From NCBI GenBank assembly GCA_030016635.1, contig JASEJQ010000021.1:1-34277 (forward strand): 34,277 nt of DNA. The letters run 5' to 3'. The number at the start of each line of letters is the position of its first letter. Position 1 is the first letter of the stretch. The position numbers and the translations under genes were made by a program. Shown piece by piece: positions 4,977-31,205 of this stretch. Origin of the DNA: Thermoanaerobacteraceae bacterium. GTDB taxonomy: Bacteria; Bacillota; Thermoanaerobacteria; Thermoanaerobacterales; UBA4877. The notes below the pieces were generated by a model. It had not been told where the DNA came from, did not search any database, and saw only the letters and a program-made list of their open reading frames with translations.

Positions 4977-5237
4977 ATGGAGACAGTAAGGGCTAAGCGC
5001 AAGGAAAGAATTGGTTTAGTAGTGAGCGACAAGATGGATAAGACAATAGTGGTTGCAGTGGAAGACAGGGTAAAGCATCCCCTTTATGGGAAAATAGTCA
5101 AGAGGACTAAGAAATATAAAGCCCATGATGAAAACAATGAGGCACATATAGGAGATAGAGTCCTTATTATGGAAACCAGGCCGCTTAGTAAGGAAAAAAG
5201 GTGGAGGCTGGTTAATATAATCGAAAGGGCAAAATAA
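4977..5237 (+). CDS. rpsQ: 30S ribosomal protein S17
   Basis: S17 is a primary 16S rRNA-binding protein with an OB fold. The 86-residue product has the signature [20 protein letters not shown] and later [19 protein letters not shown] and [20 protein letters not shown], matching bacterial S17 throughout. AAAGGAGG lies upstream. Ordinary. Confidence 0.97.
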
Positions 5238-5255
5238 TGAAAGGAGGTCTATCCC

Positions 5256-5624
5256 ATGATTCAACCGCAAACGAGGCTAAAGGTTGCTGATAACACAGGT
5301 GCGAAGGAGATCATGTGTATAAGGGTTCTCGGTGGTCCTAATAGGAAATTTGGGAATATAGGTGATATAATAGTTGCTTCTGTTAAAAGTGCAACACCTG
5401 GAGGTGTTGTAAAAAAAGGAGATGTAGTTAAGGCAGTTGTTGTAAGGTCCGTAAGCGGTCTTGGGCGAAAGGATGGTACGTATATCAGGTTTGATGAGAA
5501 TGCAGCGGTTATAATCAAAGATGATTTACAACCGAGAGGTACGCGTATTTTTGGACCTGTTGCCAGAGAACTGCGCGATAAGAACTTTATGAAGATAATT
5601 TCTCTTGCACCAGAAGTGCTTTGA
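5256..5624 (+). CDS. rplN: 50S ribosomal protein L14
   Basis: L14 sits at the subunit interface and contacts 16S rRNA. The 122-residue product starts [19 protein letters not shown] and includes [29 protein letters not shown] and [14 protein letters not shown], the most conserved L14 blocks; it ends [10 protein letters not shown]. Length is exactly that of typical bacterial L14. Confidence 0.98.
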
Positions 5625-5638
5625 TTGGAGGTGGCAAA

Positions 5639-5959
5639 ATGCCTAAGGTGCATGTTAAAAAAGGAGATACGGTTGTTATTATATCAGGTGAAGATAGGGG
5701 TAAAAAGGGAAAGGTTCTTAAGGTAATTCCAGATGAGGGAAAAATTCTTGTTGAGGGAATAAATGTGGTAACCAAGCATAAGAAGCCGAGTGGCCAGGCC
5801 CAACAGGCTGGAATTATTCATGAGGAAGCGCCAATATATAGCTCCAAGGCTTTATTATATTGCAATAACTGCGGAAAAGGTGTCAGATTTGGCAGAAAAA
5901 TTCTTGAAAGCGGACAAAAAGTGAGATATTGCAAAGTCTGTGGGGAGAATTTAGACTGA
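5639..5959 (+). CDS. rplX: 50S ribosomal protein L24, zinc-binding form
   Basis: L24 is an assembly-initiating protein with a KOW motif, seen here as [20 protein letters not shown] at residues 7-26. The 106-residue product has four cysteines (C75, C78, C98, C101) as two CxxC pairs near the C-terminus, the metal-binding version found in many Clostridia. The ATG at 5639 is used because GGAGGTGG at 5626-5633 is correctly placed before it; a TTG at 5621 overlaps the rplN stop and lies upstream of the site. Confidence 0.95.
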
Positions 5960-20346: not shown

Positions 20347-21819
20347 ATGGAGAAAAGAGACTCCTTTGCAACCCGGTTCGGCTTTATTGCCGCGGCAATG
20401 GGCCAGGCCATAGGCACAGGGAATATATGGAGGTTCCCCAGGGTTGCAACAGCTAATGGCGGTGGCCCGTTCATGGTGGCCTACATTGTGGCACTTCTTG
20501 TATGGTCAGTGCCTCTACTTATTGCAGAGGTTGTCATGGGGAGGCATACCAGAGAGGGCACAGTAGGTGCTTTCAGGGATTTCATGGGGAAAAAGTATAC
20601 ATGGATGGGTGGCTGGATGGTATTTGTCTGTCTTGCTTTAGGGGCTTATTATTCAGTTACCATGGGCTGGACTCTTAAATATTTCACACTGGGCATTTCT
20701 GGTGCATTAAAGCCCGGGGTTGATACAGAACTGTTATGGAACAATTTTGTAGCATCACCATGGCAGGGCATCTTATTCCATACAATATCTGTGGCTCTTG
20801 CTGCATATGTTGTATTCAGAGGAGTAAACAAGGGGATAGAGACAGCGTCAAAGTTTATGATACCTACCCTTTTTGCACTTCTGATTATTGGTATGATAAG
20901 AGCGCTGACACTACCCGGTGCAGTAGGTGGTTTGAATTATCTATTCAATCCAGACTTTAGCCAACTTTTAAGCGGCAAGGTATGGCTGGAGGCATTTACA
21001 CAGTCAGCCTGGTCTACTGGTGCTGGGTGGGGCTTTATGATTACCTATGCAGTATACACCAGGGAAAAGGAAGACGTGGCATGCAACGGTTTTATTACAG
21101 GATTTGCTGATACATCAGCAGCACTAATCGCAGCCATGACAGTTATACCAACAATATTTGCGCTGGCACCTGAAAGCTTAAATGAGGCTATTGGTGCAGG
21201 AAATACCGGGCTCACATTTATATGGCTTGCAAAACTATTTCCTGAGATGCCAGGTGGTTCTATTATAGCCACTGTTTTCTTCCTGGCAATGGGTTTTGCT
21301 GCACTTACTTCTTTATATGCAATGTATGAAGTTGGCATAAGAAATTTCATGGATGCAGGCTGGAGCAGGAATAAAGCTGCAACCTTTGTGGTAGCATTAT
21401 GCTTCTTGGGTGGATTGCCATCTGCCATAAATATAGAGTTTTTAAACAACCAGGACCAGGTTTGGGGTGTTGGACTATTGGTTAGTGGCTTATTGGTTTC
21501 ACTGGCAATGATGAAGTATGGTCTTGAAAAGGCCAGGCTGGAGGATATCAACCCTGTATCTGATATCAAGATAGGCAGATGGTGGAACTACTGTGTAATG
21601 CTCTTCCCTGTTATGTTTATAGTCATTTGTGGCTGGTGGATATATCAGGAATTTACATGGTATCCTGACACATGGTGGAATCCATTGGAGACTTACAGCC
21701 CGGCTACAATGTTCTTGCAATGGGCATTAGTGATAATAGTATTTGTATTATTCAATAATACATTAGCAAAAGCAATAAAGGCAAAGAGCCCTGAACTCCT
21801 TCAGAAGGAGGGGAAATAA
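20347..21819 (+). CDS. Sodium:amino acid symporter, NSS (SNF) family
   Basis: A 490-residue polytopic membrane protein of the neurotransmitter:sodium symporter family (LeuT/MhsT/MetP relatives), expected to import an amino acid with Na+. The family mark GTGNIWRFPR lies at residues 23-32 in the unwound first helix, preceded by RFGFIAAAMGQAIG; conserved N26 would serve the sodium site. About eleven to twelve hydrophobic segments follow. A tiny membrane protein gene abuts it directly, as in MetPS systems. Substrate cannot be read from sequence; the neighbouring epimerase makes proline or hydroxyproline one candidate, methionine/alanine or others are possible. Confidence 0.93.
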   Translation: MEKRDSFATRFGFIAAAMGQAIGTGNIWRFPRVATANGGGPFMVAYIVALLVWSVPLLIAEVVMGRHTREGTVGAFRDFMGKKYTWMGGWMVFVCLALGAYYSVTMGWTLKYFTLGISGALKPGVDTELLWNNFVASPWQGILFHTISVALAAYVVFRGVNKGIETASKFMIPTLFALLIIGMIRALTLPGAVGGLNYLFNPDFSQLLSGKVWLEAFTQSAWSTGAGWGFMITYAVYTREKEDVACNGFITGFADTSAALIAAMTVIPTIFALAPESLNEAIGAGNTGLTFIWLAKLFPEMPGGSIIATVFFLAMGFAALTSLYAMYEVGIRNFMDAGWSRNKAATFVVALCFLGGLPSAINIEFLNNQDQVWGVGLLVSGLLVSLAMMKYGLEKARLEDINPVSDIKIGRWWNYCVMLFPVMFIVICGWWIYQEFTWYPDTWWNPLETYSPATMFLQWALVIIVFVLFNNTLAKAIKAKSPELLQKEGK

Positions 21820-21930
21820 ATGAATATAGGCAGTTTAATTACAATGATTATAGTCCTGTGCTTAATTTTTGGTGGACTGCTTTACTTTCTCAATATTGCA
21901 TTTACCAGTGAGGGCAAAAGAAAGGAATAG
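21820..21930 (+). CDS. Small membrane subunit of the NSS symporter (MetS-like)
   Basis: A 36-residue ORF that starts on the base right after the symporter stop (TAAATG) and has an excellent ribosome-binding site, AAGGAGGGG at 21806-21813. The product MNIGSLITMIIVLCLIFGGL… has one transmembrane helix from about residue 5 to 28 and a charged cytoplasmic tail (EGKRKE). Size, topology and place match the small subunits described for NSS transporters (MetS of the MetPS methionine/alanine importer, also in many Firmicutes). It is below usual gene-calling length. Confidence 0.85.
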   Translation: MNIGSLITMIIVLCLIFGGLLYFLNIAFTSEGKRKE

Positions 21931-21936
21931 AAGTTC

Positions 21937-21956
21937 TGCGGGCCTTTTGGCCCGCA
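21937..21956 (+). terminator. Strong hairpin after the symporter genes, no T run
   Basis: TGCGGGCC (21937-21944), loop TTTT, GGCCCGCA (21949-21956): an 8-bp GC-rich perfect stem seven bases after the small subunit stop. There is no T run on either strand, so it is not a textbook intrinsic terminator. It could protect the 3' end of the symporter mRNA, act as a weak terminator, or separate expression of the two blocks. Confidence 0.5.
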
Positions 21957-21972
21957 CTATAAAATCTCTCAA

Positions 21973-22006
21973 CTGGTCTGCTGAGTATACTTGGTTTACT
22001 GAGGAT
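21973..22006 (+). promoter_or_regulatory. Direct repeats before the second gntR, possible operator
   Basis: CTGGTCTGCTGAGTAT (21973-21988) and TTGGTTTACTGAGGAT (21991-22006) agree in 12 of 16 positions and are offset by 18 bases. A possible -10 box, TATACT (21986-21991), lies at the junction, although no good -35 is seen. Placed 15 bases before the regulator start, they are candidates for binding sites of one of the GntR proteins. Confidence 0.4.
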
Positions 22007-22020
22007 AGGGAGTGAGTATT

Positions 22021-22719
22021 ATGGATGTAAAGCCAGTGAAAACCACGAAACTATACGAGGGTGTCATTGACTACATAATAGAGATGATAAATAGTGGTGT
22101 AATAAGGCCTGGACAGCAGCTCCCTACTGAAAATGAATTTATTGATATGCTTAAGGTAAGCAAAGGGGTGCTTAGAGAGGCCTTCAGGGTACTGGAATAT
22201 AGAGGGATCATTGAGACCCGCCCTGGTGAAGGAAGATATATGCGTTCAATAATTGGAGAATTGGGCAGGGATATAGATTACTATCAGAAATATCGAAGAG
22301 CGTCTCTCCTTGATATCTGCGAGTGCAGACAGATGATTGAGGTAGGACTTGTGAGATTAGCAGTAAGGAGGGCTACACCTAAGGACATTGATGAACTGGG
22401 TGAAATTAATCAGAGGATGAGAGACATGGTCTTAGATGACAAGGAAACTGACCTGGATATGGAATTTCATCTGGCAATTTCCAGGGCTGCACATAATATC
22501 GTGCTCCTGGAATCCATGCAAAATATTATTAACACTTTGAAGAATATTAATGAAAAATCAGCATTAACATATCAAGCCTGGAGGACATTATGCTTTGAAC
22601 ATCAGGATATTTTTGAGGCGGTTGCATCAAGAGACGAGAACAGGGCAGTATATGCTATGCGTACACACCTTATGAATCTCCGAAATGCTATTATGGAATC
22701 AAGGGAGGGGATGATATGA
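22021..22719 (+). CDS. GntR-family regulator, FadR/FCD type (second copy)
   Basis: A 232-residue regulator, with the winged-helix domain at about 8-75 (PGQQLPTENEFIDMLKVSKG, REAFRVLEYRGIIE) and an FCD domain with D146-x3-H150, H194 and H216 as probable metal ligands. ATG at 22021 is chosen over GTG at 22012 since AGGGAG is 8 bases upstream and the N-terminus then aligns exactly with the first regulator. Its stop overlaps the epimerase ATG by four bases, so regulator and catabolic genes form one operon, which suggests autoregulation by the pathway substrate. Confidence 0.92.
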   Translation: MDVKPVKTTKLYEGVIDYIIEMINSGVIRPGQQLPTENEFIDMLKVSKGVLREAFRVLEYRGIIETRPGEGRYMRSIIGELGRDIDYYQKYRRASLLDICECRQMIEVGLVRLAVRRATPKDIDELGEINQRMRDMVLDDKETDLDMEFHLAISRAAHNIVLLESMQNIINTLKNINEKSALTYQAWRTLCFEHQDIFEAVASRDENRAVYAMRTHLMNLRNAIMESREGMI

Positions 22720-23741
22720 GAACAATAAGAAATGTGTTTGCTGTAGATTCTCATACAATGGGAGAGCCGACCAGGGTTGCAATAGGAGGAATAACGGATA
22801 TACCAGGTAATACAATAGCAGCAAAAAAGACTTATATGGAAAGTAATATGGACAATTTGAGGAGTTTTTTACTCAATGAACCCCGTGGGCATGGTGATAT
22901 GGTGGGCTCAGTAATATTACCACCTGTTTCAAGAGAGGCATCTATAGGAGTCATTTTTATGGACTGCGGTGGCTATCTCAATATGTGCGGGCATGGTACC
23001 ATAGGTACGGTAAAGGTAGCACTGGAGATGGGCCTGGTTCCTAAAACAAGCCCTATTACCAGATTTAAGATTGAGACACCAGCTGGCTTGGTGGAGGTTT
23101 CTGCGGTAGTTGATGGAGATGAAGTAGGAGATATAAGTTTTATTAATGTTCCTTCATTTATATATAAGGAAAACGTTGGCATAAACCTTAATGGGTATAC
23201 AGATGTAGCATTAGATATATGCTTTGGAGGAAGTTTTTTCGGGATTCTACCAGCCGAAACCCTTGGGCTTAAGATTGAAAAAGAAAATATACCCAAATTC
23301 ATAGAGCTTGGACTTTTAATAAGAGATAAGATAAACAAAGAGTACGAAGTAATACATCCATCTATGCCTCATATAAAAAAGGTAGATCTGATAGAGTTTT
23401 ACGGGCCTGCTGATGTCGAAGGGGCAGAATATAAAAACATAGTCATATTTGGCAATGGCCAGTTTGATAGGTCTCCCTGTGGTACGGGTACGTCGGCTAA
23501 ACTGGCACTGATGTACGGACGAGGCGAGATTGGAATAGGCGATACGGTTGTATCAGAGAGCATACTTGGTACCTGCTTCAAAGGCAAAATTTTAAAAGAA
23601 GTGGCTGTAGGCAACCTGAATGGGATTGTCCCTGAGATAAGTGGCAGGGCTTATATTACAGGGTACAACCATCTTCTAATTGAGTCAGAAGATATTTTTA
23701 AAGAGGGTTTTGCATTTAATGAAAGGGGGTCATTGATTTGA
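22716..23741 (+). CDS. Proline racemase family, probable 4-hydroxyproline 2-epimerase
   Basis: A 341-residue cofactor-independent racemase/epimerase that uses two cysteines as acid and base. Both are present: C91 in NMCGHGTIG and C255 in DRSPCGTGTSAKL, which argues against the dehydratase branch, where one cysteine is replaced. The first motif reads CGHG, as in 4-hydroxyproline 2-epimerases such as the Pseudomonas aeruginosa enzyme; clostridial proline racemase has CGHN. The likely reaction is trans-4-hydroxy-L-proline to cis-4-hydroxy-D-proline, with proline racemisation as the alternative. It overlaps the regulator by ATGA and the next gene by TTGA. Confidence 0.85.
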   Translation: MRTIRNVFAVDSHTMGEPTRVAIGGITDIPGNTIAAKKTYMESNMDNLRSFLLNEPRGHGDMVGSVILPPVSREASIGVIFMDCGGYLNMCGHGTIGTVKVALEMGLVPKTSPITRFKIETPAGLVEVSAVVDGDEVGDISFINVPSFIYKENVGINLNGYTDVALDICFGGSFFGILPAETLGLKIEKENIPKFIELGLLIRDKINKEYEVIHPSMPHIKKVDLIEFYGPADVEGAEYKNIVIFGNGQFDRSPCGTGTSAKLALMYGRGEIGIGDTVVSESILGTCFKGKILKEVAVGNLNGIVPEISGRAYITGYNHLLIESEDIFKEGFAFNERGSLI

Positions 23742-24043
23742 GGATAGAAAGTCATCCAATCTTGGAGTTTAAAAGAGGCAATGCATTAAAGTTTATATTT
23801 GATGGACAGGAAATGGTAGGTTATGAAGGAGAAACCATAGCAGCAGCTCTTCATGCAAATGGTGTAAAAATTCTTTCGCATAGTCTTAAAGAAGGACGTC
23901 CAAGGGGTTTTTATTGTGCCATAGGCAACTGTTCTTCATGCCTCATGAAGGTAAACGGCACTCCCAATGTAAGGGTATGCACTGAGCCTTTAAAGGATGG
24001 CATGGTAGTAGAAACCCAACATGGAAAGGGAGTTATAAAATGA
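23738..24043 (+). CDS. [2Fe-2S] subunit of D-amino/imino acid dehydrogenase (HcnA-like)
   Basis: A 101-residue protein of the Fer2_4 type, with C60, C65, C68 and C81 in the plant-ferredoxin-like spacing (CAIGNCSSC then C). It matches the N-terminal segment of sarcosine oxidase alpha and HcnA, the electron-transfer subunit of hydrogen cyanide synthase and D-hydroxyproline dehydrogenases. The start is TTG at 23738 in a four-base TTGA overlap with the epimerase; translation is probably coupled. It overlaps the following flavoprotein by ATGA. Confidence 0.88.
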   Translation: MRIESHPILEFKRGNALKFIFDGQEMVGYEGETIAAALHANGVKILSHSLKEGRPRGFYCAIGNCSSCLMKVNGTPNVRVCTEPLKDGMVVETQHGKGVIK

Positions 24044-25128
24044 TAAAAACTGATGTTGCAATTATAGGAGGCGGCCCTGCCGGGCTTTCAGCGGCGATTG
24101 CAGCGGCAGACATGGGTGCGCACGTAACCCTTGTAGATAGGAATCAAGAACTCGGAGGGCAGCTTTTAAAGCAGACGCATATGTTTTTTGGTTCACGGGA
24201 GGAATATGCATCTACGAGGGGCTTTGACATTGCAAATATATTAAAAGAAGAACTTAAAAAAAGAAATGTAGATGTGCTTTTAAACACCACGGTGGTTGGA
24301 TATTACAAAGACGACGGCGTGTGGGGAATGGAACATGGCGAAGATAAATTTGTGAAACTGAAAGCAAAGAAGACCGTTGTTGCCACGGGAGCAATGGAAA
24401 GGCATTTGCTGTTTCCGAATAATGACCTCCCGGGTATATATGGTGCCGGTGCTGTACAGACCTTGATGAACCAATATGGAGTAGTACCAGGGAAGAGGGT
24501 CTTAATGGTTGGTGCGGGAAATATCGGACTTATTGTCAGCTACCAGCTTTTGCAGGCAGGCGTGGAGGTGGCTGCAATAATTGATGCTGCACCGACTATA
24601 GGTGGTTACCTTGTGCATGCATCAAAGGTAAGGAGGCAGGGAGTGCCTATAATGACCTCCTATACTGTTAAGAAGGCTTATGGTAACGGCGTACTGGAAG
24701 GCGCTACTATAGTAAAGGTAGATAATAGGTTTCAGCCTATACCAGGTACAGAGATGGACATGGATATTGACACTATGTGCATAGCAGTTGGTTTAAATCC
24801 ATTAGTGGAACTGCTCTGGCAGGCAGGTTGTGAGATGAGGTATATACCGCAACTGGGCGGCCATGTCCCAGTAAAGGATGAAAACTATGAGACAACTGTC
24901 GAAGGTATATATGTAGCTGGTGATGCTGCTGAAATAGAGGAGGCTACATCTGCAATGGTAGAGGGCAGGATAGCCGGCCTTAATGCTGCGTATACCATGG
25001 GATTTGACAATGGACATTATTGTGATGAAAGAGAAAAGGCGATAAAGAGGTTGCAGGACCTGAGGTCAGGTCCGGTTGGTGTAAAGATTAGTAATGGTTT
25101 ATTAAAACTTGCTGAGGAGGCAGTTTGA
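24040..25128 (+). CDS. FAD/NAD-type flavoprotein subunit of the dehydrogenase (HcnB-like)
   Basis: A 362-residue pyridine nucleotide-disulfide oxidoreductase-like protein. It has an FAD Rossmann motif GGGPAG at 10-15 with the acidic strand end LVDRNQELGGQ, a second nucleotide-binding motif GAGNIG at 158-163, and the late FAD block YVAGDAAEIEEATSAMVEGR. HcnB/OoxA-type proteins usually carry a C-terminal BFD-like iron-sulfur domain and are about 100 residues longer; here that domain is a separate gene at 25632. In the archaeal dye-linked proline dehydrogenase the matching alpha subunit passes electrons onward. Role: electron exit from the complex. Confidence 0.88.
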   Translation: MIKTDVAIIGGGPAGLSAAIAAADMGAHVTLVDRNQELGGQLLKQTHMFFGSREEYASTRGFDIANILKEELKKRNVDVLLNTTVVGYYKDDGVWGMEHGEDKFVKLKAKKTVVATGAMERHLLFPNNDLPGIYGAGAVQTLMNQYGVVPGKRVLMVGAGNIGLIVSYQLLQAGVEVAAIIDAAPTIGGYLVHASKVRRQGVPIMTSYTVKKAYGNGVLEGATIVKVDNRFQPIPGTEMDMDIDTMCIAVGLNPLVELLWQAGCEMRYIPQLGGHVPVKDENYETTVEGIYVAGDAAEIEEATSAMVEGRIAGLNAAYTMGFDNGHYCDEREKAIKRLQDLRSGPVGVKISNGLLKLAEEAV

Positions 25129-25129
25129 T

Positions 25130-25627
25130 ATGATATCGGAGAAGCTTTTAAGAGAAGGAGTGGCAGATGAGAGCGACCTGAAAGAGGTTATACCTCCCGA
25201 CTGGGCATTGGAGAAGGGGCCAGTTGCTGTGGCAGAGTGCTTTCAGGAGATTCCCTGTAATCCCTGTTCTACCTATTGTAATAGGGGAGCAATAGTTTTT
25301 GAAAATATCAATGACAGGCCGATAATAGATTATGAGAAATGTAACGGATGCACTCTGTGCGTCAGCAAATGCCCCGGCCTGGCCATATTTATAATAGACA
25401 AAAACTTTTCAGAGGACGAGGCTACTGTTATGCTTCCCTATGAATTTTTACCGCTACCCAAAAAAGGAGATGTAGTGACGACTCTGGATAGATATGGTCG
25501 GCCTGTAGGAAAGGGAAAAGTAATAAGAGTGCAGAACACCAGATATAATGATAAGACCCCTCTCATATCTGTAACAGTTCCTAAGGATATGGCTATGGTG
25601 GTCAGGAACATAAGGGTGGAGGTGTAA
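25130..25627 (+). CDS. [4Fe-4S] ferredoxin-like subunit of the dehydrogenase
   Basis: A 165-residue protein with eight cysteines: C71, C74, C77 and C81 form a classical CxxCxxCxxxCP motif, and C37, C43, C46 and C50 could bind a second cluster. A beta-rich C-terminal region follows (about 110-165). Size and place match the 19-kDa gamma subunit of the archaeal four-subunit L-proline dehydrogenase. The ATG at 25130 follows GAGGAGG by nine bases; an in-frame TTG at 25109 is within the preceding gene and upstream of the site. Confidence 0.85.
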   Translation: MISEKLLREGVADESDLKEVIPPDWALEKGPVAVAECFQEIPCNPCSTYCNRGAIVFENINDRPIIDYEKCNGCTLCVSKCPGLAIFIIDKNFSEDEATVMLPYEFLPLPKKGDVVTTLDRYGRPVGKGKVIRVQNTRYNDKTPLISVTVPKDMAMVVRNIRVEV

Positions 25628-25631
25628 AAAA

Positions 25632-25910
25632 ATGGAAGAAAAAACAGTGGTATGCAGATGTGAAGACATTACGGTTGAAGAAATTGAGGAACTGATAGAC
25701 TTAGGGTATGATGAGATAGAAGAAATTAAGAGGATCACCCGATGCTCTATGGGCCCGTGTCAGGGCAGGACATGCAGAAACCTGCTTATTCAGGTTGTAG
25801 CTTCGAAAACAGGGAAAAAGATAGATGAGCTTCATATACCCACATACAGGCCGCCGGCGAAGAATATAAAGATGACTGCTCTGGCAGGGGGTGATGAAGA
25901 TGAAAAGTAG
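25632..25910 (+). CDS. BFD-like [2Fe-2S] subunit of the dehydrogenase
   Basis: A 92-residue protein with the BFD signature: C8 and C10 (VCRCEDIT) then C38 and C43 in TRCSMGPCQGRTC, the pattern seen at the C-terminus of HcnB-type subunits. Here it stands alone, as the roughly 10-kDa subunit does in the archaeal proline dehydrogenase. It lies four bases after the ferredoxin gene and overlaps the next flavoprotein gene by 11 bases. Its likely role is transferring electrons between the two flavoproteins. Confidence 0.87.
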   Translation: MEEKTVVCRCEDITVEEIEELIDLGYDEIEEIKRITRCSMGPCQGRTCRNLLIQVVASKTGKKIDELHIPTYRPPAKNIKMTALAGGDEDEK

Positions 25911-27048
25911 TGCTGAGATAGTTATAATCGGGGCAGGGATATCTGGCCTGGCCACAGCATACAATCTTGCAGTCAGAGGGATGAAGGACATAGTAGTAAT
26001 TGAAAAAGGATATATAACCAGCGGCTCTACTGGACGATGCGGAGCAGGTGTAAGGCAACAGTGGGGTACAGAGATGAACTGCAGACTTTCAAAGGCAAGT
26101 TGCGAGATACTGGAAAACTTGGAGGAAATATTGGATTACAAGCGCAGTATAGAATTTAAACAGGGGGGATACCTGCTGTTTGCAACTACAGAGAAAGAAG
26201 TAGAACAGTTTGAAAAGAATGTGACACTGCAGAATAGCCTTGGTATAAATTCCAGTATGCTCTCCATCGATGAAGCACTGGAGATTGTACCGGATATGAA
26301 CACTGAAGGTGTAATGGCCTTTGCCTTCCATCAGAAAGATGGTCATGCAAACCCGTTTCATACCACCTTTGCCTATGCAGAAGCAGCAAGAAGATTGGGT
26401 GTAGAAATAAATACCTATACAACGGTCACGGGCATAAAAGTGGAAAATGGCAGGATAGAATCGGTTATAACAGATAAAGGTGAAATCAAAACGCACAGGA
26501 TATTAAACGCTGCCGGTGGTTTTGCAAAGGATATAGGCAGAATGGTTGGTGTAGAGCTACCACTAAAACCTGAAAGGCATGAAATATTAGTGACGGAACC
26601 AGTAGAACCGATACTTGGCCCCATGCTTATGTCATTTTCATGGAATTTTTACATTCAGCAAGAACCCAACGGCACATTTATAATGGGTTATGGTGAACCC
26701 AATAACCCTGAAAGCCAGAAAATTGATTCATCATGGCATTTTGCCCAGGAAATGGCCAGGAAAGCCATCGGTGTATATCCTCCTCTTTCAAGGGTAAGGG
26801 TGGTAAGGCAGTGGGCAGGTCTATATATGATGACCCCTGATTCTCAGCCCATATACGGCAGTATTCCTGGTGTGGATGGTTTCTATATAGCTGCTGGCTT
26901 TAGCGGCCATGGATTTATGTTTGGGCCGATCACAGGGGTATTGATGGCAGAATATATACTGGGTGAAGAACCTGAAATTCCCATAAATATGCTGGATGTC
27001 GGCAGATTTGAAAGAGGGGAGCTTATTTACGAGCCTTCCGTTGTTTAA
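25900..27048 (+). CDS. DadA-like FAD subunit, catalytic D-hydroxyproline/proline dehydrogenase
   Basis: A 382-residue DAO-superfamily flavoprotein with FAD motif GAGISG at 11-16, the second FAD block SGSTGRCGAGVRQQW at 41-55, and C-terminal IYGSIPGVDGFYIAAGFSGH. It matches HcnC, sarcosine oxidase beta and the beta subunit of archaeal L-proline dehydrogenase, and should perform the actual substrate oxidation at the C-alpha to nitrogen bond. ATG at 25900 is preferred, eight bases after AGGGGG; ATG at 25894 and GTG at 25891 overlap that site. With the epimerase upstream, cis-4-hydroxy-D-proline is the favoured substrate; proline, sarcosine or another D-amino acid are alternatives. Confidence 0.87.
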   Translation: MKSSAEIVIIGAGISGLATAYNLAVRGMKDIVVIEKGYITSGSTGRCGAGVRQQWGTEMNCRLSKASCEILENLEEILDYKRSIEFKQGGYLLFATTEKEVEQFEKNVTLQNSLGINSSMLSIDEALEIVPDMNTEGVMAFAFHQKDGHANPFHTTFAYAEAARRLGVEINTYTTVTGIKVENGRIESVITDKGEIKTHRILNAAGGFAKDIGRMVGVELPLKPERHEILVTEPVEPILGPMLMSFSWNFYIQQEPNGTFIMGYGEPNNPESQKIDSSWHFAQEMARKAIGVYPPLSRVRVVRQWAGLYMMTPDSQPIYGSIPGVDGFYIAAGFSGHGFMFGPITGVLMAEYILGEEPEIPINMLDVGRFERGELIYEPSVV

Positions 27049-27093: not shown

Positions 27094-27501
27094 ATGAAAC
27101 TAGCTGTAAAAAATGAACTCTGTTCAGGATGCAGGGCCTGTGAGCTCATATGTTCCTTGTCTCAGCGGGGCGAAAATAATCCACATCTGGCTGCTTTAAA
27201 TATTGTGCCACATTTTCCGGTACCGGGAATATATGAAATTAAGATTTGCGACCAATGCGGCGACTGTGCTGAGGTCTGTCCATTTGAGGCAATACATGAG
27301 GAAAATGGCGTATATACAATAAATGAAGATGAGTGCACAGGGTGCGGCATATGCCTTGATGCCTGCCCCAATGATGTCCTTACCATGCCTGATGATTATA
27401 CTATACCGATAAAGTGTACCAATTGTGGCGACTGTGTTCTTATCTGCCCGAGAGAGGCAATCTATGATGCAGATGCTGCATCCAGAGAGGAGGCTGTATG
27501 A
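27094..27501 (+). CDS. Four-cluster ferredoxin partner of the aldehyde oxidoreductase
   Basis: A 135-residue polyferredoxin with sixteen cysteines in four CxxCxxCxxxC groups: 10/13/16/20, 52/55/58/62, 81/84/87/91 and 108/111/114/118, so four [4Fe-4S] clusters. It resembles AorA of the Aromatoleum aldehyde oxidoreductase and HycB/DmsB-type electron carriers. It lies 45 bases after the flavoprotein gene, with GGGGGG as a ribosome-binding site, and runs into the oxidoreductase gene. Its job is probably to take electrons from the tungsten enzyme. Confidence 0.9.
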   Translation: MKLAVKNELCSGCRACELICSLSQRGENNPHLAALNIVPHFPVPGIYEIKICDQCGDCAEVCPFEAIHEENGVYTINEDECTGCGICLDACPNDVLTMPDDYTIPIKCTNCGDCVLICPREAIYDADAASREEAV

Positions 27502-29345
27502 TGCTATATGGATATGCTGGGAAAATATTAAGAGTTAACCTGACCGAGAAGACCCATCATATAGAGCCACTGCCCGAATACATGGCCAGAGAATACATAG
27601 GGGGCAGAGGATTTGTTGCTAAAATATTATATGATGAAATTGAAATAGGCATAGACCCGCTGGGTCCAAAGAATAAGCTGATTATAGCACCAGGGCCCCT
27701 TACAGGCGTATTTCTCACTGCAGGTGGTAAGACAGAGCTCGGCACATTATCTCCTGAGACTGGTGGTTATGGAGATTCCAATATAGGTGGTCATATAGGA
27801 CCAGAAATAAAGTATGCAGGATATGATATGATTATACTGGAAGGAAAAGCACCTGAAAAAACTTATTTATATATTGAAGATAATAAGATAGAGTTCAGGG
27901 ATGCGTCAAAATATTGGGGCATGGAGTGCATGGAAGCTGAAAAAGCCTTGAAGAGTGACCTTGGGGAGGATTTTCAGATATTACTTATTGGCCCCGCTGG
28001 AGAAAATATGGTCAAGTTTGCATGTATTTCCCATGACTACGGCAGACAGGCAGGACGTACTGGCGTAGGAGCTGTAATGGGTTCTAAAAACCTTAAGGCA
28101 ATAGCAGTAAAAGGTACACACTCTATACCACTGTATGATAAGGATGAGGTAATAAATATAGGGAAGCAGATGTTCAAAGCATGCAAAGAAAAGGATGCAG
28201 AGGCACAGTGGAGCATATATGGCACCATAGGTGTTACAGATTGGTGCAATGAGGTTGGCGCATTTCCAACAAAGAATTTTTACGACGGATGGAATCCTAA
28301 CTACAAAAACCTGAATGGGCCTACGGCTAGAGAAGAGATAATAGTGAGGGACAAAGGGTGTTTCTGCTGTCCCATACCATGCGGCAAGTATTCCCATGTC
28401 AAAAAAGAAGGCTATGACGTATATGTGGAAGGGCCTGAGTATGAGTCTAATGCCTTAATAGGCGGAAGCTGCTATTTTGATGATATAAAAGATGTAGCCT
28501 ATGGCAATGCCATACTGGATGAGCTGGGCATGGACTCTATTTCCGGCGGCAATGTCATTGCCTTTGCCATGGAATGCTTTGAGAGAGGGGTCATTACGAA
28601 GGAAGATACGGATGGCAGGGAGATTAAGTTTGGTGATATAGACTCCTTTAAATATCTGGCCGAAAAGATTGCAAAGAGGGATGGCATAGGTGACCTCCTG
28701 GCAGAAGGTGTAAAGAGGGCGTCAAAGATTTTGGGCAGGGGTTCAGAGGACTATGCTATACAGATAAAGGGCCTGGAATGGAGCGGATATGAATCCAGGT
28801 ATGCCCCTGCCAATATGCTGGCATACATGACATGCGATGTAGGTGCTCATCACAACAGGGCATGGGCCATTACCTATGATGTGGCTACAGGAAGGGATAA
28901 GCTGGAGGGCAAGGCCGACAGAGTGATTGAACTGCAGCACATAAGACCGCTATTTGACATGCTGGGCTGCTGTAGGTTGCAATGGGTGGAGATATCCTTA
29001 GAGCTGGACTATTATCCAAGGATATTAAAGGCAGTTACCGGTTTTGATTATGATATGGATGACCTCTTAAAACTCTCTGAAAAGGTCTGGAACCTCACCA
29101 GGGCATTCTGGAAAAAGCATAATCCTGACTTTGGCAGAAGCTGGGATTATCCGCCAGCCAGAATAATGAACGAGCCTATACCATCTGGACCTGCTCAGGG
29201 CAAGTATATACCAAAGAAGGATTTAGACTGGCTCTTGGATGACTATTATAAAAAGAGGGGCTGGACTGAAGACGGAATACCTACAAGAGAAAAGCTTGAA
29301 GAGCTTGGTCTGAATTTTGCAGTAAAAGACCTATATGGGGTGTGA
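27501..29345 (+). CDS. aor: Tungsten aldehyde:ferredoxin oxidoreductase
   Basis: Oxidises an aldehyde to a carboxylate with a tungsten bis-pterin cofactor and a [4Fe-4S] cluster. The 614-residue product starts MLYGYAGKILRVNL, the family opening, and has cluster ligands C287, C290 and C294 (CFCCPIPC) and C490/C491 near the C-terminal third (DMLGCCRLQW). E313 in GPEYES and H450/H451 in GAHHNRAW match the acid-base residues of the Pyrococcus enzyme. ATG at 27501 is chosen because GAGGAGG is seven bases upstream; the ATG at 27498 is possible. Substrate unknown; a semialdehyde from the upstream pathway is attractive. Confidence 0.93.
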   Translation: MLYGYAGKILRVNLTEKTHHIEPLPEYMAREYIGGRGFVAKILYDEIEIGIDPLGPKNKLIIAPGPLTGVFLTAGGKTELGTLSPETGGYGDSNIGGHIGPEIKYAGYDMIILEGKAPEKTYLYIEDNKIEFRDASKYWGMECMEAEKALKSDLGEDFQILLIGPAGENMVKFACISHDYGRQAGRTGVGAVMGSKNLKAIAVKGTHSIPLYDKDEVINIGKQMFKACKEKDAEAQWSIYGTIGVTDWCNEVGAFPTKNFYDGWNPNYKNLNGPTAREEIIVRDKGCFCCPIPCGKYSHVKKEGYDVYVEGPEYESNALIGGSCYFDDIKDVAYGNAILDELGMDSISGGNVIAFAMECFERGVITKEDTDGREIKFGDIDSFKYLAEKIAKRDGIGDLLAEGVKRASKILGRGSEDYAIQIKGLEWSGYESRYAPANMLAYMTCDVGAHHNRAWAITYDVATGRDKLEGKADRVIELQHIRPLFDMLGCCRLQWVEISLELDYYPRILKAVTGFDYDMDDLLKLSEKVWNLTRAFWKKHNPDFGRSWDYPPARIMNEPIPSGPAQGKYIPKKDLDWLLDDYYKKRGWTEDGIPTREKLEELGLNFAVKDLYGV

Positions 29346-29347
29346 AT

Positions 29348-29581
29348 ATGAAAATAACATTAAAGGCATTGGGCGGAATGAAGGAATTCTTCCCTGATAA
29401 AAAAGAAATTCTTGAGGTAGAAACGGAGAATGGCAAAAATATATCTGACATATTAAAAGATAACGGAATAAACCCTGACATAGTAATGCTAGTGATGCTT
29501 GGCGGTAAAAATGTTGGTAAAGACTATATTCCTAAGGATAATGAAGAGGTGGGACTCCTCCCACCTCTTGCCGGAGGCTGA
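29348..29581 (+). CDS. MoaD/ThiS-family sulfur carrier next to AOR
   Basis: A 77-residue ubiquitin-fold protein ending LLPPLAGG, with the C-terminal diglycine needed for thiocarboxylation. MoaD-like proteins supply the dithiolene sulfur of molybdo/tungstopterin; a dedicated copy is common beside AOR genes (AorD in Aromatoleum). ATG at 29348 follows GGGGTG at the end of aor; an in-frame GTG at 29342 overlaps that site. The GGA GGC codons of the diglycine form the 5' arm of the terminator, so gene end and transcript end are fused. Confidence 0.88.
   Translation: MKITLKALGGMKEFFPDKKEILEVETENGKNISDILKDNGINPDIVMLVMLGGKNVGKDYIPKDNEEVGLLPPLAGG
29544..29569. other. 11-bp hairpin inside the MoaD gene end
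   Basis: AAGAGGTGGGA (29544-29554) and TCCCACCTCTT (29559-29569) form a perfect 11-bp stem with a CTCC loop, inside the last codons of the MoaD-like gene and four bases before the terminator stem. Read on the - strand it is followed by CATT and a mixed AT stretch and could help end transcripts arriving from the convergent OPT gene, which otherwise has no terminator of its own. Confidence 0.55.
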
Positions 29582-29593
29582 TGCCTCCTTTTT
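29573..29593 (+). terminator. Intrinsic terminator of the aor block
   Basis: GGAGGC (29573-29578), loop TGAT, GCCTCC (29583-29588), then TTTTT (29589-29593). The loop holds the TGA stop of the MoaD-like gene, and the final bases overlap the stop codon of the convergent OPT gene on the other strand. It is a clear terminator for the + strand block. Confidence 0.88.
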
Positions 29594-31205
29594 ACGTTCC
29601 AGAAAGTACATGTACTATCGCAATGATAACTCCTGCGACACCCTCCCCACCAAGTGCTCCGGATGCCATAAGTTCACCTTTCTCTGTAGTTTTTGGATAG
29701 TACTTGTTTGTTATAAACCTTATAAGCCCACCCAGAGCGGCTGTTGTAGAAATGGACATGGGGAGATATACTCCTATGCCAATAGTGGTGGCAGGGAGGT
29801 TGAGCCAATAGAGTATTATTCCTACAACCAGGCCTATTATGAATGCTGGGGGATTTGGAAGGCCACTTACCATGGTTGATACCGCATATGCCTGCGGTGC
29901 TACCAGCTGTGTACCAGGGCCCATAGCACCATAAGCCTGATGCATTATGAATATGACAGCAGTAGAGACTACTGCACCTACTATTCCACCTATGGCCTCA
30001 GCATAAACCTGTGCTTTTGGGGAGGAATGGAGAATATAACCTGATTTGAAATCCTGTAAATTATCACCGGCCAGGCCACATGCTACTGCTACTACGCAGG
30101 CGATAAAGAATGACTCCATAAAGCCGGGATTTACAACTGCTTTTGTTACCAGTAAAACGATTATGCCAAAAATCTCCATTGGATCTATCCCAGTTTGTCC
30201 GTCTATCATGGCAGCCATAGCTGTGGTTATCCATACGCCAAGTATGACTATAATACTTGGTATTAAAGACATCTGTGTAAACACAGTGAGCAGAAAAGCA
30301 ATTATTATGAAAGCCCATGGAGCCCATTTGAGGTTTACATCGGTATCCTGGCTCCTAAACATAGGTCCAAATATCTTTTTTGCCTGAGGGATAATTGATT
30401 TAAAAAGCAGACCAAGTCCACCACCAACAATTATTCCTATACCTAAGCTATTGGTAAATGCCGTGGCTCCTGCTACATCAAAAATACCCATAGCAACAGT
30501 GATTGGCATTATTATAAAGTAGCTCAATACTGCTCCTGCAAACCAGCTTAATGTGTATAGTGGACCAATAATATAACCTATGCCAAGAGCCATAGGTGAT
30601 ATCCAGGCACCAAACTGTATATTCCTTTTCCATAAAAATTGAGGAAGCCATGCACCAGGGATTAATCCCCACTGATCCCTTAATGCAGTAAATATGGCAA
30701 CTATTCCGAGTGATGAGAAAAGATACCTGGCTTTGGTACCACCCTCATCTCCGGCCAATAATGTATCAGCTGAGGCTTTACCCATAGGATATGGAAGTTG
30801 CATTTCCTCCACAAACTGTCTCCGGTATAATGCACAAAATATTACGCCCAATACTGTACCTGCTAAAACTACAATAAAGAGTTCCCACGGATTTACAACT
30901 GCATCCTTTTGTATCATCCATATGCCGGGAATTGTAAAGGCAACACCACCTGCCACCATTCCGCCTGCAGACATGGCAGTATGTGTAACATTTATCTCAT
31001 TTAGATTGGTGTGCCCCAAAAGTCTTAATATTGTCAGAGATAAGATAGCCACAAATATTGTTGGCCATGGGAGTGCACCCATGCGTAGGGCAACGTAGGT
31101 TGAGCTGGTTGTGATAAGGACGGAACCCAATGCGCCAATTATCATGCCTCTCAGGGTAAACTGCTCATGGAAATTTGTGGCAAATTTAATTGAACCAGAT
31201 TCCAT
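29592..31205 (-). CDS. OPT-family oligopeptide (or metal-chelate) transporter
   Basis: A 537-residue polytopic membrane protein of the OPT/YSL superfamily, with the N-terminal block TLRGMIIGALGSVLITTSST, the conserved LPYPMGKASADTLLAG near residues 135-150, and many hydrophobic helices. Bacterial members are thought to import short peptides or metal chelates; the substrate here is unknown. The gene starts right after the stop of the peptidase gene (TAA then ATG) with AAGGAGGAC inside that gene's end, so the pair is cotranscribed and probably coupled. Confidence 0.9.
   Translation of the reverse strand: MESGSIKFATNFHEQFTLRGMIIGALGSVLITTSSTYVALRMGALPWPTIFVAILSLTILRLLGHTNLNEINVTHTAMSAGGMVAGGVAFTIPGIWMIQKDAVVNPWELFIVVLAGTVLGVIFCALYRRQFVEEMQLPYPMGKASADTLLAGDEGGTKARYLFSSLGIVAIFTALRDQWGLIPGAWLPQFLWKRNIQFGAWISPMALGIGYIIGPLYTLSWFAGAVLSYFIIMPITVAMGIFDVAGATAFTNSLGIGIIVGGGLGLLFKSIIPQAKKIFGPMFRSQDTDVNLKWAPWAFIIIAFLLTVFTQMSLIPSIIVILGVWITTAMAAMIDGQTGIDPMEIFGIIVLLVTKAVVNPGFMESFFIACVVAVACGLAGDNLQDFKSGYILHSSPKAQVYAEAIGGIVGAVVSTAVIFIMHQAYGAMGPGTQLVAPQAYAVSTMVSGLPNPPAFIIGLVVGIILYWLNLPATTIGIGVYLPMSISTTAALGGLIRFITNKYYPKTTEKGELMASGALGGEGVAGVIIAIVHVLSGT

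Follow-up and report, generated by a model that had tools for sequence, protein, structure and literature searches.

Two predicted intrinsic terminators, one per strand, at the convergent ends of a MoaD-like gene and an oligopeptide transporter gene

At one locus of a Thermoanaerobacteraceae genome, the gene for a MoaD/ThiS-like sulfur carrier meets the convergent gene for an OPT family oligopeptide transporter at a junction that is probably made up of two ordinary intrinsic terminators, one per strand, in an interlocked arrangement. Both hairpins are predicted to terminate transcription in the cell. The junction is situated in a window of 34,277 nucleotides, this being the whole stretch of DNA that was analysed (assembly GCA_030016635.1, contig JASEJQ010000021.1), and constitutes a compact case of stop-overlapping terminators between convergent genes, of which the second hairpin, for the other strand, is the somewhat unusual part. 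Since terminators overlapping stop codons are common in the sampled part of this genome, a special ribosome-controlled switch is not needed to explain the junction. A single locus is of little weight; as such, it illustrates the compactness that convergent gene ends can reach in this lineage.

The features of the junction are compiled in Table 1. The MoaD-like protein is recognised by the ThiS family profile with an E-value of 9.6e-05 and 23.3 bits, the cut-off being 22.5. A possible GTG start at 29342 would yield an ORF of 79 aa and overlaps the stop codon of the aldehyde ferredoxin oxidoreductase (AOR) gene (29343-29345); of the two, the ATG at 29348 more likely serves as the start codon.

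Table 1. Predicted genes and hairpin elements at the junction, in window positions
Feature	Position	Strand	Basis
Aldehyde ferredoxin oxidoreductase (AOR; AFOR_N, AFOR_C)	27498..29345	+	Pfam PF02730, PF01314
MoaD/ThiS-like sulfur carrier, C-terminal ...LLPPLAGG, 77 aa from ATG	29348..29581	+	Pfam ThiS PF02597, ORF
Hairpin 1: 11 perfect pairs, loop of 4, within MoaD coding sequence; probable OPT terminator	29544..29569	-	
Hairpin 2: 6 pairs, loop TGAT with MoaD stop codon; AOR-MoaD terminator stem (predicted)	29573..29588	+	
T run (U tract) of hairpin 2	29589..29593	+	
OPT family oligopeptide transporter, convergent with the MoaD-like gene	29592..31205	-	Pfam PF03169, ORF

Hairpin 2 is composed of GGAGGC (29573-29578), the loop TGAT (29579-29582) and GCCTCC (29583-29588), directly followed by TTTTT (29589-29593), with the moaD stop codon TGA (29579-29581) contained in the loop. 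The stop codon of the OPT gene, TTA on the plus strand, occupies 29592-29594 and shares bases with this T run. Hairpin 1 is formed by AAGAGGTGGGA (29544-29554) and TCCCACCTCTT (29559-29569), enclosing the loop CTCC. The first-pass annotation, made from the letters of this DNA, had described a terminator-like hairpin whose 5' arm consists of the GGA GGC codons of the C-terminal diglycine and whose loop contains the stop codon; this is borne out letter by letter, as is the overlap of the T run with the stop of the convergent gene. A second perfect 11-bp hairpin upstream in the coding sequence is likewise present, while the spacer between the two, given there as four bases, comprises three (29570-29572); the claim that two proteins and, probably, two transcripts all end within about 50 bases is supported. 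The predicted RNA fold of 29530-29610 contains both hairpins and reaches -32.7 kcal/mol, compared to a mean of -20.4 (sd 3.2) for shuffled sequences (z -3.87), none of the 200 shuffles being equal or better.

The assignment of each hairpin to a strand follows from the surrounding bases. A scan for the terminator consensus listed hairpin 2 on the plus strand and hairpin 1 on the minus strand; given its yield of 11 terminator-like sites in 7 kb versus 6.3 (sd 2.9) in shuffles, the scan alone lends weak support to both. On the plus strand, hairpin 2 exhibits the sequence hallmarks of an intrinsic (Rho-independent) terminator, namely a GC-rich stem-loop with a U run immediately 3' of it, with a stability of -11.0 kcal/mol that falls in the weakest quarter of 81 terminators sampled from the same genome. 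Hairpin 1, on that strand, has no U-rich tail, GCCGGAGG coming next, and is absent from the plus-strand list; the minus strand is the only one on which the consensus scan finds it terminator-like. There, its stem-loop is stable (-19.1 kcal/mol), begins 22 nt past the OPT stop and is followed by the tail CATTATCCTT, a poor one that with 5 T in its best 8 positions just reaches the minimum of the scan; 43 of the 81 sampled terminators likewise have only 5 T in the tail. As hairpin 1 lacks a T run on the plus strand but, on the minus strand, has a strong stem, 22 nt downstream of the OPT stop codon, and a T-rich though poor tail, we assign one terminator to each strand, hairpin 1 probably serving the OPT gene. 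A single two-way terminator was not found at the junction, the best hairpins on the plus and minus strands being different ones.

For judging how ordinary such a layout is, a sample of the same genome is available, consisting of 40 stretches plus the window (645,077 bases, 27% of 2,351,550). Every ORF of at least 70 aa was taken as a gene, so that some gene ends and gene pairs are false. From -60 to +120 of each stop codon, a terminator was called where 5 or more uninterrupted pairs formed a stem with a loop of 3-8 and a stability of -8 kcal/mol or lower, followed by at least 5 T in 8 positions. By this definition, terminators are present at 81 of 608 usable gene ends, versus 4 of 543 interior control stretches. 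Of the 81, 32 have a stem that starts before the stop codon is complete, and in 16 the start lies nine or more bases ahead of the end of that codon, the median stem start being +3. Nine terminators carry the stop codon unpaired in the loop, like hairpin 2; 13 have it wholly or partly in the stem or on the border of the stem, and 10 have a stem whose first base falls within the stop codon. When outer A-T and G-T pairs are trimmed, which keeps A and T tracts from inflating the stems, overlap is seen in 18 of 72. In this sample, overlap of terminator and stop codon is routine, and hairpin 2, with a stop codon as part of the loop, is no outlier; with 32 overlapping cases among 81, the view that the junction is exceptional is not supported. 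Many terminators at or across the stop codon is the layout associated with runaway transcription. The nine stop codons placed in terminator loops raise the question of how ribosomes finish where a hairpin wraps the stop.

The same scan applied to 250 kb of Escherichia coli K-12 yielded no overlap (0/35 untrimmed, 0/31 trimmed), which differs from the own genome with Fisher p-values of 1.7e-6 and 0.0012, respectively; the G+C content, 0.52 in E. coli versus 0.40 here, differs too. Relatives vary. Overlap amounts to 16/55 untrimmed and 7/44 trimmed in a genome of the same family (G001), to 6/17 and 1/15 in one of the same order (G004), to 2/26 and 2/22 in a further one of that order (G005), and to 2/11 and 2/8 in one of the same class (G024). 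G005 is lower than the own genome, with p 0.003 untrimmed and p 0.14 trimmed, and the median stem start of G024 is 27 (n=11), near the 19 of E. coli, versus 3 in the own genome. Hits wholly upstream of the stop codon, of which there were three in E. coli, two in G001 and one in G024, were left out of these counts. The samples of the relatives are small, and G005, G024 and the differing G+C content of E. coli count against the reading drawn from the own genome. The contrast with E. coli agrees with the published idea that the spacing from stop codon to terminator marks bacteria in which the polymerase outruns the ribosome.

Convergent gene ends were assessed in the own-genome sample as well. 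It contains 59 convergent ORF pairs, 44 of them with a gap of 100 or less; among the latter, a terminator is found on at least one strand in 18 and on both strands in 8. In seven of these eight two-strand pairs, one two-way hairpin is common to both strands, and only the window has two separate hairpins; it is also the only one of the eight in which the minus-strand hairpin lies wholly within the coding sequence of the partner gene. The two-hairpin form is, hence, the less usual one at close convergent pairs. Published two-way terminators of convergent genes (PMC1852404 and PMC4824070, both from partial text) resemble the present case in the short junction and in the terminator-like hairpins on both strands, but differ in that a single hairpin is shared, whereas here there is one for each strand. 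A convergent pair listed at 4977-5653, in the ribosomal gene region of the window, is probably false. At another locus (L056), a plus ORF at 1202-1447 and a minus ORF at 1444-2274 overlap by 4 bases, with a terminator hairpin across the stop of the minus ORF; this pair is tighter than that of the window, provided that the plus ORF, some 81 codons long, is genuine.

With one terminator per strand, a polymerase arriving from the AOR-MoaD side would form hairpin 2 by pairing of the diglycine codons with the first bases after the stop, and the plus-strand transcript would be released in or just past the U run from 29589. A polymerase arriving from the OPT side would pass the stop codon of its own gene and, 22 nt later, form hairpin 1, antisense to the last moaD codons, whereupon the minus-strand transcript may be released in the T-rich stretch at about 29534-29543. 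A hairpin overlapping a stop codon could still form, because transcription in this lineage is probably ahead of the ribosome; we infer an uncoupling of translation from transcription in this species. The self-complementarity of the region is helped by the protein motif itself, because PPxxGG is encoded as CCN CCN ... GGN GGN.

Homologues of the MoaD-like gene offer a view on conservation. Among 23 other genomes of the order, the MoaD-like protein had no match at E 0.001; there being no close relatives for covariation, homologues from the whole phylum were used instead, where 77 of 398 genomes, the own one included, match the protein. Of the 101 places listed, 91 were read, including the window (left out: G380, G038:C124, G132, G280, G375, G087, G285, G169, G208, G122). 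Together with the loci L002-L004 these make 94 gene ends, of which 92 have Gly-Gly plus a stop codon; L040 and L082, without it at the expected place, were dropped. Two of the 92 (L002 and L019) are identical in sequence, and only the best hairpin per end was considered. That hairpin is terminator-like and ends past the stop codon in 13 of the 92, and the window alone (1/92) has one that also starts before the end of the stop codon. The stems are, hence, not conserved in relatives, an outcome that the first-pass annotation had itself named as refuting its reading. There is also no sign of a conserved regulatory RNA element of MoaD genes, the arrangement being present at one of 92 ends and a scan of the whole window with Rfam at gathering thresholds giving zero matches. 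Viral contigs yielded no relative.

Searching by pattern for relatives linked to AOR retrieved three loci, from Desulforamulus aeronauticus (L002), D. putei and a Bacillota MAG; Desulforamulus is a genus of the Bacillota. As L019, which shares the sequence of the D. aeronauticus locus, comes from a genome listed in the phylum of the window, the organism of the window probably belongs to the Bacillota as well. At these three AOR-linked MoaD ends, no terminator-like hairpin ending past the stop was found within 120 bases. Published AOR-linked MoaD pairs (PMC1779556, partial text) likewise have a MoaD-like gene adjoining AOR, plus a ferredoxin gene, and no difference from the window was noticed. 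At two further homologues (L072 and L076), a terminator-like hairpin lies wholly inside the last MoaD codons and was not counted as overlapping; at the gene end of L072 (from G154), TAA TTTTTT comes after the hairpin, and the predicted fold does not favour the hairpin.

Hairpin 1 calls for separate consideration as to whether it is more than chance. With the 15 C-terminal residues fixed and codons resampled according to the usage of the ORFs in the first sample of this genome, a stem of at least 11 bp arose in 1 of 20,000 draws, and GGA GGC appeared as the last two codons in 6.3%. Its 11-bp stem is the longest when the final 45 coding bases are compared across 626 gene ends, followed by one of 8, and interior coding windows with a stem of 11 or more number 2 in 11,858, from which about 0.1 would be expected in 626. 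At the 91 other MoaD-like ends, stems reach 9 bp once and 7 or less elsewhere, with a mean of 4.57 versus 4.18 expected. Hairpin 1 is an outlier, and selection on it is probable, though not certain, with a role as OPT terminator as the simplest reason. A repeated hairpin family was considered and rejected, given that the hairpin 1 core plus four-base loop occurs in the own genome only here, with up to two mismatches allowed; the combination of GGAGGC, a loop of 3-8 and GCCTCCTTTT is found at two places.

The alternative that hairpin 1 is a functionless chance product of codon choice on the C-terminal motif of MoaD, with hairpin 2 alone terminating, is unlikely. PPxxGG is self-complementary by itself, and therefore GC-rich hairpins are easy to find at MoaD gene ends: most of them fold on themselves, the Pro-Pro codons having the Gly-Gly codons as their main partners at 54 of 90 distinct ends and codons upstream at 22, as raw counts not set against shuffles. 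Such a reading can also draw on the 0.1 hairpins expected among 626 ends, which is not a vanishingly rare event. However, a stem of 11 bp needs a rare combination of codons for this peptide, and it falls where a terminator of the OPT gene is needed.

A more elaborate scheme, which we regard as quite unlikely, would have the last moaD codons carry three overlapping messages, namely the conserved Pro-Pro/Gly-Gly tail of the protein, a terminator for the plus strand looping around the stop codon and, in antisense, one for the neighbouring gene. Ribosomes finishing translation would then have to open the hairpin that protects the 3' end of the mRNA, so that translation might act back on the stability of the message or on how far transcription continues into RNA antisense to OPT.

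Termination dependent on ribosome position, as proposed in the first-pass annotation, is very doubtful. According to this explanation, a ribosome following closely would cover hairpin 2 and allow read-through into OPT antisense sequence, whereas lagging translation would permit the transcript to end; by the geometry of the site, a ribosome with TGA in its A site should indeed cover hairpin 2. A precedent is known from E. coli, in which a terminator with the stop codon shifted from 28 bp to 5 bp upstream of it dropped in efficiency from about 90% to under 10% (PMC4824070, partial text), and the ribosome argument fits E. coli also with respect to the 0/35 overlap in our scan. Even there, however, a terminator that lay 38 bp deep in the coding region retained 40% of the efficiency of its partner construct, and some terminators overlap upstream genes (same partial text). 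Ribosome gating is not the default reading at this junction, because Bacillota are classed as bacteria with runaway transcription (PMC13323073, partial text). In Bacillus subtilis, terminators are located few nucleotides past stop codons and the polymerase outpaces the ribosomes (Johnson et al. 2020, via PMC7858274, partial text). The 32 stop-overlapping terminators among the 81 sampled would come at a price if ribosomes blocked them as a rule, and the arrangement was not seen at the 91 other MoaD-like gene ends. Two ordinary intrinsic terminators, in turn, find their closest counterparts in those Bacillota terminators near or across stop codons (Johnson et al. 2020 via PMC7858274; PMC13323073; both partial text), which belong to the same phylum and have the stem within few nucleotides of the stop or across it, a layout found at many sampled ends. 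Hairpin 2 differs in that its stem begins six coding bases before the stop, and the lead of the polymerase is one that we infer here. The validation search of TransTermHP began 25 nt upstream of the stop codon (PMC1852404, partial text). Our literature search found no account of stop-overlapping stems in Firmicutes, which does not by itself establish that the exact arrangement is absent from print.

A plus-strand function of hairpin 1 in the moaD mRNA, whether by delaying the ribosome or by shielding the 3' end, in place of terminating OPT transcription would agree with the stability of this stem, greater than chance codon choice provides (1/20,000), its rank as the longest coding-end stem of 626 and its weak T tail on the minus strand. 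Such a function is highly improbable, given that the stem is not seen at the 91 other MoaD-like ends and that its location, 22 nt downstream of the stop of the convergent gene, suits a terminator.

Beyond the junction, the window encodes the ribosomal proteins S10, L4 and L2 at 232-2998 according to Pfam, and the sizes and order of the ORFs beyond 2998 suggest the long ribosomal operon of the S10-spc-alpha type. Upstream of AOR, at 20347-27048, Pfam matches indicate genes for an SNF-type symporter, a GntR regulator, a protein of the proline racemase family, a pyridine-nucleotide oxidoreductase, a ferredoxin-like protein and an FAD-dependent oxidoreductase, which together look like a proline or hydroxyproline catabolic cluster. 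Three more AOR paralogues are present in the own genome (L010, L011 and L012), with 37-39% identity; those at L011 and L012 have one TAG each within the matched stretch.
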